A stretch of 55,138 nt of DNA, from positions 1-55,138 of the forward strand of contig JAPLJC010000169.1 of NCBI GenBank assembly GCA_026388765.1, read 5' to 3'. A model generated the notes under the pieces. The model saw only the letters and a program-made list of their open reading frames with translations, searched no databases and was not told where the DNA came from. Position 1 is the first letter of the stretch; each line of letters starts with the position of its first letter. This DNA is from Deltaproteobacteria bacterium (GTDB taxonomy: Bacteria; Desulfobacterota; Desulfobaccia; Desulfobaccales; 0-14-0-80-60-11). Shown piece by piece: positions 479 to 9,624 of this stretch. Position numbers and translations under genes: made by a program.

Positions 479-1048
479 ATGAAAAAATCCCTCGGTCCCA
501 GGACCCTGGCCTTCCCCACGCCGATATGGGTGGTGGGAACCTACGACGCCAACGACAAGCCCAACGTCATGACCGCGGCCTGGTGCTCCATCTGCTGCTC
601 CAAGCCACCCTGCATGGCGGTTTCCCTGAGAAAAGCCACCTATTCCTACGGCAATATTGTGGCCCGGGGCGCCTTCACCATCAACGTGCCCTCGGAGGCG
701 CACGTCAGAGAGGTGGATTATTTCGGCATGGTCAGCGGCCGCGACCTTAACAAGTTCGCCCAGGCCCGCCTCACCCCGGTGGCCAGCACCGTGGTGGACG
801 CCCCCTACGTGGCGGAATTCCCTTTGGTGCTGGAGTGCAAACTGCTCCACACCATCGAGATCGGCCTGCACACCCAGTTCATCGGCGAGATCCTGGACGT
901 CAAGGCCGATGAAGCCGTCCTGGGGGACAAAGGCTTCCCGGATATCGAAAAGGTGCGGCCCATCATCTTCGGCCCGGAAATCCGCACCTATCACGGCATC
1001 GGCAAATACCTGGGCCAGGCCTTTGCCATCGGCAAGGATATCCAATAA
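479..1048 (+). CDS. Flavin reductase-like / flavoredoxin family protein
   Basis: This 189-residue protein fits the FMN-binding flavin reductase-like family (PF01613), which includes flavoredoxins that pass electrons between FMN and partner proteins in anaerobes. The family shape is visible: an N-terminal 'PTPIWVVGTYD' strand, the 'ALRK..Y..NI...GAFTINVPS' type segment near residues 45-75, and 'LVLECKLLHTIEIGLHTQFIGEI' in the C-terminal half (split motif, residues about 118-140). AAGGAGG stands 6-7 bases before the ATG. It abuts the next gene, a paralogue, with no spacer, so the two are probably co-translated. The substrate or partner is unknown. Confidence 0.88.
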   Translation: MKKSLGPRTLAFPTPIWVVGTYDANDKPNVMTAAWCSICCSKPPCMAVSLRKATYSYGNIVARGAFTINVPSEAHVREVDYFGMVSGRDLNKFAQARLTPVASTVVDAPYVAEFPLVLECKLLHTIEIGLHTQFIGEILDVKADEAVLGDKGFPDIEKVRPIIFGPEIRTYHGIGKYLGQAFAIGKDIQ

Positions 1049-1624
1049 ATGGGCAAGATCAATCTCGGCGCCGACGCCTATATCTATCCCATGCCGGTGA
1101 CCCTGGTGGGGGCCATGGTGGAGGGGCGGGCCAACTTCATGGCGGTGGGCTGGGTGATGCGGGTCAACCTGAAGCCGCCGCTGCTGGCGGTGGCTCTCAA
1201 TAAGGCCCACTATACCCCGAAGGGCATCCGGGCCCAGCGCAGCTTCAGTGTCAACTTCCCCGGCGCCGACCTGATGGAAAAGGCCGACTATTGCGGCCTG
1301 GTCTCGGGCCATAAGGTAGACAAATCCGGCCTCTTCCGGGTCTTTTTCGGCGAATTGGAGACCGCGCCCATGATCGAGGAATGCCCCCTGGGTCTGGAAT
1401 GCCGCCTCTACGACGTGGTGGAATTGCCGGTCAACAATCTCTTCATCGGCGAGATTGTGGCGGCCTATGCCGACGAAGACTGCCTCACCGACGGTCGGCC
1501 CGATATCTTGAAGATCAATCCCCTGTTGCTCACTATGCCGGACAACAACTACTGGACCGTGGGCACCCACGCCGGCCGGGCCTGGAGCGCTGGGAAGAAG
1601 TTGAAAGAAACGCAGAAATCCTAA
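1049..1624 (+). CDS. Flavin reductase-like protein, tandem paralogue
   Basis: This 191-residue member of the same flavin reductase-like fold starts at the ATG directly after the TAA of the upstream gene. It keeps the family's 'P.PVTLVGAMVEGRANFMAVGW' beginning and the 'LECRLYDVVELPVNNLFIGEI' block but is clearly diverged from its neighbour. The zero-length junction suggests translational coupling and perhaps a heterodimer, since the family is normally homodimeric. A palindrome of the GTAGGG type follows the stop. The role is inferred as FMN-dependent electron transfer. Confidence 0.87.
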   Translation: MGKINLGADAYIYPMPVTLVGAMVEGRANFMAVGWVMRVNLKPPLLAVALNKAHYTPKGIRAQRSFSVNFPGADLMEKADYCGLVSGHKVDKSGLFRVFFGELETAPMIEECPLGLECRLYDVVELPVNNLFIGEIVAAYADEDCLTDGRPDILKINPLLLTMPDNNYWTVGTHAGRAWSAGKKLKETQKS

Positions 1625-1685: not shown

Positions 1686-2531
1686 ATGAAACCAGACCTC
1701 AGCGACACCGAAATTCACACCATCCGGGAAGGCATCCGGCACAAGTACACCCAGGTGGCTACCCAGTCCGACGCCGGCGGTTCCTTCCAGTACCCCACCG
1801 GCCGGGAGGGGATGCGGCAGCAGGGTTACCCCATGGAGCTGGTGCAAGACTTGCCCGAGGCGGTCCTGCAAGCCTTCTGCGGAGTGGGGAACCCCTTCAG
1901 CCTGGGACCCATCCGTCCCGGAGAAACGGTGCTGGACATCGGCTGCGGCGCCGGGGTGGATACCCTGATAGCCGCCCGCCTGGTGGGCCCTACGGGCCGG
2001 GTGGCGGGGGTCGACGCCACTCCGGAGATGATCGCCCGGGCCCGGGCCAACCTGGTTCTGGCGGGTCTCACCAACGTCAGCTTCGAGATCGCCGCCGCCG
2101 AGGCCCTCCCCTTCCCGGACCGGGAATTCGACGTGGTCATCTCCAACGGCGTCATCAATTTGACCGTCGACAAAGAGCAGGCCCTCAGGGAGGTACAGCG
2201 GGTCCTCAAGCGCGGCGGCCGTCTGATGGTCGCCGACATGGTCCTGGTGACAGAGCTGCCGGGAGACCAGGCCGGCAAGGTGGAAAACTGGTTCCAGTGA
2301 ATTGGCGGGGTCATACCGGGAAAGGATTTCCTGGCGCTGCTGCTGAAAGTGGGCTTTCACCGGGCCGGCCTGGACCGGTTCACCGGCTTTAAAAGCTCCC
2401 CCTACACCGAAGGAGCGCTGTTCTATGGGGAGAAGCCGGTGGTTCAAGAGGCCGAAGAGGCCAGCAAAGCGCGGCTGGACCGGCTGGAGGAGCCCAAGGA
2501 GACCAAGTGTCCCCCTAGCAGCCCCGGCTGA
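1686..2531 (+). CDS. ArsM-like SAM methyltransferase, probable selenoprotein (in-frame TGA at 2298)
   Basis: Reading through one TGA gives 281 residues of an ArsM-like SAM-dependent methyltransferase. Motif I 'VLDIGCGAG' is at about 82-90, preceded by 'FCGVGNPF' (64-71), which matches the pre-motif of arsenite methyltransferases. Residue 205 is TGA in the context 'ENWFQ-stop-IGGVIPGKDF'. In AS3MT/ArsM the equivalent context is 'GEC.GGA', whose Cys binds As(III), so TGA sits exactly on a functional Cys. The frame continues for 76 sensible residues ('FLALLLKVGF', 'FTGFKSSPY'), and a SECIS-like hairpin lies 16-34 bases downstream. Selenocysteine insertion is my preferred reading; a nonsense mutation or sequencing error is the alternative. 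Without readthrough the product is 204 residues. The substrate could be arsenic, selenium or something else. Confidence 0.7.
2316..2334 (+). promoter_or_regulatory. Candidate bacterial SECIS hairpin
   Basis: CCGGGAAA-GGA-TTTCCTGG forms an 8-bp stem (one G-U pair) with a 3-base loop starting with G. The hairpin begins 16 bases after the TGA and its loop lies 24 bases after it. Both values fall inside the spacing usually given for bacterial SECIS elements, and a G in the first loop positions is their hallmark. The evidence is positional and structural only. Confidence 0.5.
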
Positions 2532-2855
2532 GTGCGCAAATAACCTGCCAGGCCGGCGGGTAACTCGATATTTGGAGGCGGCTTTTCCGACCGCCGCCTC
2601 ACTTGGACATATCCAGCCCTCAAGATAGGCGCGGCGATGCTGCTGGTCGGCTGCGCTTCCAAGGAGCTTGGACCATCCGAGTTCCCGACTTCGATTTAGC
2701 CCCTGTTGGTCCGGACCCACCGAAATCCCAGGCTCCCCGTCATCCTGCCTGTTCCTCTCCTTTCCGTGAAGCGATTGCCTCCGAAGATCATTTTTTTATT
2801 GTTTCGAATCTTCGAATATTTTATAAATTCCTGAGTCGATTAGTGTTAGTGTTGC

Positions 2856-8173: not shown

Positions 8174-9624
8174 ATGCCGGAAGGAACCCTCTGCAACAAG
8201 AAGACCGTCGATACCAAAGAGTATCTGGATGCCTTGCTGGCCGACAAGAGCGGCAAGAAATATTATGAAGAGATGAGCCATCTCGAGGTCGACAAGGAGA
8301 AGCTCAAGAAGACGCTGGCAGCCTCCATGAAGTCACGGATGCGCGCCTGGCTGGACCTCTGCTCCCATTGCGCCCTCTGCGGCGACACCTGCTTCCTGTA
8401 TCTGGCCAACCACCGCGACCCGACCCAGGTGCCGTCGTACAAGATCCAGTCCACCCTGGGCAAGATCGTTAAGCGCAACGGCGACGTGGACAACGAACAC
8501 ATGCGCTACTGCATGGACGTGGCCTGGTCCAAGTGCACCTGCTGCAACCGCTGCGGCTCCTTCTGCCCCTACGGCATCGACATGGGCGTCATGTTCGGCT
8601 ACCTGCGCGGCCTCTGCTTCTCGCAGGGTTTCGTGCCCTGGGAGCTGAAGATCGGCACGGGCATGCACCGCATCTACCACGCCCAGATGGACGTGACCTC
8701 CGAGGATTGGGTGGAGACCTGCGAATGGATGGCCGACGAGCAGCAGGAGGAGTGGCCGGGTCTGGAGATCCCGGTGGACAAGGTGGGCGCCGACCTGATG
8801 TACACCTTGAACGCCCGGGAGCCCAAGCACTATCCCGAGGACATCGCCGAGGCCGCCATCCTCTTCCACATCGCCGGTGAGAACTGGACCGTGCCGAGCG
8901 AGGGCTGGGAACAGACCAGCCTGGCGATGTTTGCCGGGGACTGGGGCGCTTGCAAGGTGATGGTCGAGAGCGTTTACGGGGCCATGGAGCGCCTGAAGCC
9001 CAAACGGGTCTTGGGCACCGAATGCGGCCACGCCCACCGGGCCACGGTCATCGAGGGACCCTATTGGGTCGGACGCAAGGATGGCCGGCCGCCGGTGGAG
9101 TATATCCACTACACCGAGTGGGTGGCCGAGGCCCTGCGCACCGGCAAGATCAAGATCGACCCGGACAAGAGGATCAAGGAACTGGTCACCTTACAAGACT
9201 CCTGCAACTATATCCGCAACTATGGACTGGCGGACGTCACCCGGGAGATCATTAGTTACCTGGTGGAGCCGGGCTATTTCTGGCGGACGTCACCCGGGAG
9301 ATCATTAGTTACCTGGTGGAGCCGGGCTATTTCGTCGAGATGCACCCGAACCGGGAGCACAACTTCTGCTGCGGCGGCGGCGGCGGTTTTAACGGCATCG
9401 GCATGTATCGCCAGCAGCGCAACGTGGGCCTGAAGGTGAAGCGCGATCAGATCCTGGCCACCGGCGCCAAGCTGGTTATCTCCCCCTGCCATAACTGCTG
9501 GGACGCCATCCGGGACCTGGAGGAGATCTACGAGTTGGGGATCAAATGGAGCTTCCTGAAGCCCCTGCTCATCAAGATGGCCATCATTCCGGAGCATCTG
9601 AAGCCCAAGGAAGAGGTAGAGTAA
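8174..9624 (+). CDS. hmcF: HmcF: cytoplasmic Fe-S/CCG-domain subunit, frameshifted by a 53-bp duplication
   Basis: Two four-cysteine Fe-S groups (C63-x2-C-x2-C-x3-C73 and C121...C124-x2-C-x3-C131) are followed by CCG-domain sequences ('[10 protein letters not shown]', '[12 protein letters not shown]', 'SPCHNCWD'), as in HmcF, DsrK and HdrD. It is thought to carry electrons to the cytoplasmic sulfate-reduction machinery. An exact 53-bp tandem duplication (9228-9333) shifts the frame: the first frame ends at 9433 and the true C-terminus is read from about 9316. Removing one copy restores 465 residues, the normal length. Either the gene is broken in this genome or the repeat is an assembly error. 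AAGGAG precedes ATG 8174. Confidence 0.9.
9228..9333 (+). repeat. 53-bp exact tandem duplication inside hmcF
   Basis: Bases 9228-9280 and 9281-9333 are identical and directly adjacent. Because 53 is not a multiple of three, the duplication frameshifts hmcF. Confidence 0.97.

Follow-up and report, generated by a model that had tools for sequence, protein, structure and literature searches.

The locus and its reading frame

The window analysed here is a stretch of 55,138 nucleotides from a deltaproteobacterial genome, near the left end of which two flavin reductase-like genes are followed by a gene for a predicted ArsM-fold methyltransferase with two in-frame TGA codons (Table 1). A flavin reductase-like gene lies upstream in nine of the ten loci with enough flanking sequence (the window, L088, L089, L091, L092, L094, L095, L096 and L099; the exception is L093). 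Between the flavin reductase and methyltransferase genes, positions 1626-1649 hold a REP-like palindrome, GTAGGGGCGGTTCnnGAACCGCCC, which matches the genome 88 times in forward and 87 times in reverse orientation, versus 0 for a control pattern. Further along, an HmcF-like iron-sulfur protein (8174-9624) carries an apparent frameshift near 9290-9320, its C-terminal cysteine-rich (CCG) domain being in another frame. Antisense open reading frames at 1533-2720 and 1826-2314 (minus strand) were taken as GC-rich shadow frames on the basis of plus-frame conservation.

The original prediction was a selenocysteine (Sec)-containing ArsM-like methyltransferase at 1686-2531, with a single Sec at residue 205. 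Inspection of the open reading frames bears out its premise: from the ATG at 1686 the frame passes the TGA at 2298-2300, is otherwise uninterrupted up to 2531, and is therefore open on both sides of that codon. Its end coordinate has to be moved. The TGA at 2529-2531 is almost certainly recoded too and is followed in frame by GTG CGC AAA TAA, which places the true end at the TAA of 2541-2543; if each TGA is decoded as Sec, the protein ends C275-PPSSPG-U282-VRK-stop. The supposed one-Sec protein is thus better described as a double selenoprotein, in which U282 had been mistaken for the stop.

Table 1. Features of the methyltransferase locus and of the related DUF2284 fusions
Feature	Position	Strand	Basis
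Flavin reductase-like protein FR1, conserved upstream neighbour	479..1048	+	Flavin_Reduct, 122.5 bits
Flavin reductase-like protein FR2, lying here between the FR1 and methyltransferase genes	1049..1624	+	Flavin_Reduct, 93.5 bits
Whole CDS, 285 aa, ATG to TAA, two TGAs read as recoded	1686..2543	+	NF047649 match, conservation
Predicted ArsM-fold methyltransferase with C-terminal Sec tail (MTase/UXPK-star double selenoprotein)	1686..2543	+	Full-length profile match
TGA, putative Sec205, motif WFQ-U-IGG, at the As-binding Cys224 position of CmArsM	2298..2300	+	U in 20/20 clade members
Putative SECIS 1, CCGGGAAA-GGA-TTTCCTGG, 8-bp stem, GGA loop, 23 nt after TGA	2316..2334	+	bSECIS rule, covariation
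TGT, tail Cys275, 7 residues before Sec282	2508..2510	+	Kept in 13/13 double-TGA members
TGA, putative Sec282, C-terminal tail U-V-R-K-stop	2529..2531	+	TGA here in 13/13 double-TGA members
TAA, true stop codon	2541..2543	+	Frame after second TGA
Putative SECIS 2, 3' UTR, ACCTGCC-AGGCC-GGCGGGT, 7-bp stem, loop AGGCC, -11.0 kcal/mol	2543..2561	+	Covariation
DUF2284 fusion, three tandem repeats	L136:903-2450	+	
DUF2284 fusion, three tandem repeats	L138:871-2400	+	
DUF2284 fusion, three tandem repeats	L137:1566-3080	-	

The window gene is a new member of an already catalogued family, NF047649, the "methyltransferase/UXPK-star double selenoprotein", which it matches at 514.7 bits against a cut-off of 460, with protein residues 1-285 aligned to model positions 1-283 of 283. 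Two Sec are present, as in the family; the C-terminus reads U-V-R-K-stop in place of U-X-P-K-stop, the proline being not strict among members. The MTase/UXPK-star family is listed with two Sec in a 2026 review, which cites Haft and Tolstoy 2025 for it (PMC13188914), and Sec-containing ArsM proteins were described from GOS data in 2008 (PMC2398784). Sec methyltransferases were thus already on record, which leaves the present gene its novelty as a member and not as a kind. Truncation of the protein by standard gene callers had been expected; with NF047649 in existence, annotation that draws on NCBIfam need not cut it short. In the literature we found no experimental test of the chemistry of the family.

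Recoding of the two UGA codons

The genome encodes the machinery for Sec insertion. The genes selA (602 bits), selB (346) and selD (388) and tRNA-Sec (75.7), the absence of which had been named in advance as grounds for rejection, were all found over their curated cut-offs. The genome's own selD (L075, G000:C116:2771-3685) has an in-frame TGA, and its selenophosphate synthetase is probably itself a selenoprotein.

In a search of 99 genomes, the gene scored over the cut-off in 12 more genomes of the same family, in each case with two in-frame TGAs. At the position of residue 205, U stands in all 20 aligned clade members and Cys in nearly all canonical ArsM homologues. At the C-terminus, the other members end in UAPK, UKPK, UKRK, UEPK, UPPK or UPR where the window protein has UVRK, and the spacing from the tail Cys to Sec is 6 residues in orthologues and 7 in the window protein. 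Exchange between Sec and Cys was also seen among relatives, as PGGTCPT in L137 versus PGGTUPT in L136 and L138, and as CEPC in L024 versus CDPU in L022. Sec at residue 205 with its own SECIS is strongly supported by the sel genes, by the Sec or Cys of homologues at this position and by the TGA kept in 13 orthologues. A nonsense mutation, a pseudogene or a sequencing error might be suspected in a draft assembly of 263 contigs in which another gene of the window looks frameshifted. Such a reading is refuted by the same TGAs in a dozen independent genomes, whose proteins are 60-67% identical to that of the window and conserved on both sides of the first TGA; the sel genes also speak against it, and we regard its probability as negligible.

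Hairpins were assessed by the bSECIS rule (PMC13188914), which specifies a loop of 3-9 nt, a stem of 4-16 bp, a G within the first two loop bases, a distance of 16-37 nt from the UGA and an energy of at most -7.5. Both TGAs pass, the first at -8.4 and 23 nt and the second at -11.0 and 18 nt. The first hairpin is exactly as foreseen: it spans 16-34 nt downstream of TGA 2298-2300, and a stem of 8 bp closes a GGA loop. Taken alone, SECIS 1 is unremarkable against shuffled sequences (48 nt, z = -1.38, 17/200 shuffles folding at least as well), so that the case for it rests on comparison: it satisfies the energy rule in every one of the 20 clade members (-8.4 to -14.4 kcal/mol), the background at -7.5 being 17% of the codon positions of these genes, and its covariation score is 0.195 versus 0.084 in shuffled alignments (0/500).

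SECIS 2 is found at -9 or below in 12 of the 13 double-TGA members and is also present in the AhpD-fusion relatives L022 and L024. The background among ordinary TGA stops, from which recognisable methyltransferase ORFs were left out, is 14/82 at -7.5 and 9/82 at -9. By pair counting its covariation is 0.667 versus 0.249 when shuffled and at most 0.28 in slid versions, with 96.7% of cells paired and both-side changes in six of seven pairs; this count leaves out L012 and uses 19-mers cut around the predicted loop, and so leans towards structure. L012 has a weak hairpin at this place (-1.0 by the strict contiguous-stem rule) in a 45-nt region that folds at -13.6. As read from these alignments, the covariation of SECIS 2 stands outside any coding constraint. 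An intrinsic terminator as the origin of this hairpin was rejected, since visual inspection showed no T run after the stem in the window or in most relatives.

It could be argued that only the first TGA is recoded and that TGA 2529 is a real stop, leaving one Sec: the extension is merely three codons, UGA is the commonest stop among the ORFs of these loci (92/192, a count that includes some Sec TGAs) and single-Sec relatives exist. This argument has to contend with a TGA that is present in 13/13 members and followed in each by 2-4 in-frame codons and a stop, and with the covarying 3' UTR hairpin at SECIS distance. Furthermore, in the DUF2284 fusions the GG[GT]U-P motif is internal, the frame running on well past it, and has Cys in one instance, and the NF047649 match covers model positions 1-279 without the tail and extends to the last position (1-283) only with read-through of the second TGA. 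Conservation and the second hairpin led us to reject a one-Sec product with its end at 2531, which we consider highly improbable. On comparative grounds, both TGAs (2298 and 2529) are almost certainly decoded as Sec.

The predicted ArsM fold and the arsenic ligands

Pfam places a methyltransferase domain at about residues 77-206. The AlphaFold model has a mean pLDDT of 86.5, falling below 50 in the tail (276-285), which is accordingly predicted to be disordered, and the 13 best PDB matches in structure comparison are all ArsM/AS3MT. From the predicted fold, the protein is very probably an ArsM-fold SAM enzyme. Alignment with solved ArsM structures puts Sec205 on CmArsM Cys224, in agreement with the predicted match to a conserved As-binding Cys, and puts Val67 on Cys72 and Gly155 on Cys174; the conserved As-binding set of Cys72, Cys174 and Cys224 is thus absent from the window protein. 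The 20 aligned clade members uniformly combine CGVGNP and SNG with U205, whereas in Cys homologues the motifs are GCG(N/S/V)P and SNC, and the 205 position is Cys in nearly every case. The comparison that establishes both recodings likewise establishes, at the level of alignment, the loss of the Cys ligands.

In CmArsM, the C174A and C224A mutants are inactive, both Cys being needed for any methylation (PMC3877260), and a survey of ArsM required at least three of Cys44/72/174/224 (PMC5552862). Since two of the three As-binding Cys are replaced, the window protein lacks a tested defining feature of functional ArsM despite its ArsM fold. With the visible ligands, canonical As(III) coordination is impossible, and the name "arsenite methyltransferase" for this protein is doubtful. 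The description "ArsM-like" is sound for the fold. The comparison suggests that the arsenite methyltransferase label, as given to these selenoproteins, reflects ancestry and not arsenic-binding residues.

These observations bear on the simplest alternative, an ordinary arsenite methyltransferase in which Sec merely stands in place of one Cys. ArsM is indeed nearest by fold and by sequence, the arsenite methyltransferase model PRK11873 (NF008823) matches at 208 bits, and there seems to be a true Sec-ArsM, L145, in which GCGNP and SNC are retained and U occupies the site of Sec205. The PRK11873 score is, however, below the 263-bit cut-off, the equivalents of Cys72 and Cys174 are Val and Gly in every one of the 20 clade members, one of the two Cys on which CmArsM depends is thereby missing, and a separate canonical Cys ArsM homologue (L002) is encoded in the same genome. 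We therefore judge an ordinary ArsM unlikely. Since L145 combines Sec with otherwise intact Cys, Sec at 205 alone does not mark the clade.

The clade itself is sharply set off. A search with the clade alignment across 395 genomes of the phylum gave a clean gap: every match of at least about 284 bits has an in-frame TGA, and those inspected from 240 bits downwards belong to canonical ArsM or to a second Sec clade. No Cys version of the clade was found among these 395 genomes. The clade thus seems to be Sec-only in the sampled genomes, and so offers a good test of what advantage selenium has over sulfur. In the tree, 32 Sec-clade rows fall on one side of a single branch (support 99/97), and four rows of the second Sec clade (L129, L130, L135 and L140) on another (99/90). 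Members of the latter have HFH..., FAG or FVG for FCG, GNG or SNG, and WT-x-U; they keep Sec at the 205 position and are without Cys65.

A scan of the contigs of the window's own genome gave, among the matches examined, only canonical ArsM and other methyltransferases. A second ArsM homologue there (L141, G000:C221:4472-5314) has an in-frame TGA near its N-terminus in a CUPSK motif, with canonical Cys elsewhere and a SECIS-like hairpin at -8.6; this N-terminal TGA is kept in three other genomes (L142, L143 and L144).

The Sec arm, a proposed mechanism and known systems

The tail is not confined to the bare enzyme. Its motif, GG[GTA]U, also ends the AhpD-type relative L022, and the DUF2284 fusions L136, L137 and L138 carry PGG[GT]UP[TS] or a close variant as three repeats in Pro/Glu-rich linkers, each repeat with its own SECIS. 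L136 and L138 have four Sec each and score over the NF041536 cut-off, a family to which the review gives two Sec (PMC13188914). The repeats of L137 comprise two Sec and one Cys, the Cys being in the third, where the hairpin is still there; this Cys copy supports a functional Sec/Cys position. Some members can do without the arm, as the tailless single-Sec relatives L023, L025 and L026 show.

At the 3' end of the gene in L009, L012 and L024, the recoded UGA and the terminating UGA are only 6-9 nt apart, and which of them becomes Sec must depend on the distance to a single SECIS. The tail, with its SECIS past the stop and, in these relatives, its two closely spaced UGAs, is a natural test of how spacing governs the choice of UGA. 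Outside the original family paper, we did not find in the literature a description of the loss of As ligands across the clade, of the absence of Cys versions or of tandem UGA-SECIS repeats, each of which may already be known.

We propose that SelB and Sec-tRNA would decode TGA 2298 and TGA 2529, each by way of its own SECIS, the one for TGA 2529 being located past the stop codon. An ArsM-fold domain that binds SAM would be formed by residues 1-250, Sec205 taking the place of a thiol ligand to arsenic in ArsM, and a predicted helix (254-266) would lead into a disordered arm ending C275...U282-VRK. The arm could swing to Sec205 and supply the missing second soft ligand for the substrate; alternatively, it could act as a reductant and regenerate the selenol when Sec205 has been oxidised or has substrate bound. 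Electrons could plausibly come from the neighbouring flavin reductase, and it is possible that FR1 is the electron donor to the methyltransferase. The substrate would probably be a soft metal(loid), in the form of As, Sb, Hg or Se compounds. Methylation, substrate, arm chemistry and electron donor are all inferred. The AlphaFold model, in which the arm is disordered, has no direct tie between arm and Sec205, and the meeting of Cys275/Sec282 with Sec205 is offered tentatively, by analogy, as a somewhat doubtful mechanism. Taken as a whole, a double selenoprotein of ArsM fold with an active-site selenol, a second selenol on an arm and a soft metal(loid) substrate seems to us plausible, leaning slightly towards likely.

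A different possibility is that Sec205 binds no metalloid, that an organic or a selenium or sulfur substrate is methylated or reduced, and that the likeness to ArsM reflects ancestry only. Two of the three As ligands are lost, the sister Sec clade does without even Cys65, and the genes that adjoin the methyltransferase in the window are flavin reductases and not known ars genes. Pointing the other way, six members of one genus have a gene for an ArsR-family regulator 0.8-2.2 kb downstream, and the DUF2284 domain fused to relatives is named a predicted metal-binding protein, which leans to metals. Neither the flavin reductase nor the ArsR-family neighbour proves a metal substrate, and we consider a non-metalloid substrate rather unlikely, if less so than an ordinary ArsM. 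A broader and more speculative reading is that the Sec clade is no arsenite methylase but a separate, selenol-based enzyme that has lost the ArsM thiol ligands. In it, the arm would be a mobile "UGA plus SECIS" cassette encoding PGG[GT]U-P, C-terminal on the bare enzyme or on AhpD fusions and in three tandem copies (four Sec per chain) in DUF2284 fusions, carrying metal or reducing equivalents to and from the active-site selenol. We regard this reading as possible, with less confidence than the arm mechanism.

Compared with known systems, the window protein agrees with NF047649 in its full-length match over the cut-off, its two Sec and its length, and differs in having UVRK and not UXPK at its end and 7 rather than 6 residues between the tail Cys and Sec. 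It shares the Sec methyltransferase domain with NF041537 (arsenite methyltransferase/AhpD domain selenoprotein; 357.6 bits, cut-off 510), whose AhpD-like-extended relatives L022 and L024 end in a similar Sec tail; in NF041537, however, an AhpD domain with a separate CxxU is added. With NF041536 (arsenite methyltransferase/DUF2284 domain selenoprotein; 328.3 bits, cut-off 575) it shares the methyltransferase domain and the PGG[GT]U-P arm motif, but that family has an added DUF2284 domain and up to three arm repeats. Domain search found neither an AhpD nor a DUF2284 domain in the window protein. ArsM/AS3MT (5evj, 4fr0 and 8xt7; PRK11873) share the predicted fold and SAM site, with Sec205 at the Cys224 site of CmArsM, whereas the window protein has Val and Gly for Cys72 and Cys174 and, without a counterpart of the longer C-terminal part of ArsM, ends in a disordered Sec tail instead. 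In thioredoxin reductase, a C-terminal Sec arm acts as a reductant in its own enzyme. In both proteins a flexible C-terminal arm has Sec close to its end and a Cys not far away; thioredoxin reductase is, however, an unrelated protein, in the window family Cys and Sec are 6-7 residues apart, and the likeness would be one of analogy.
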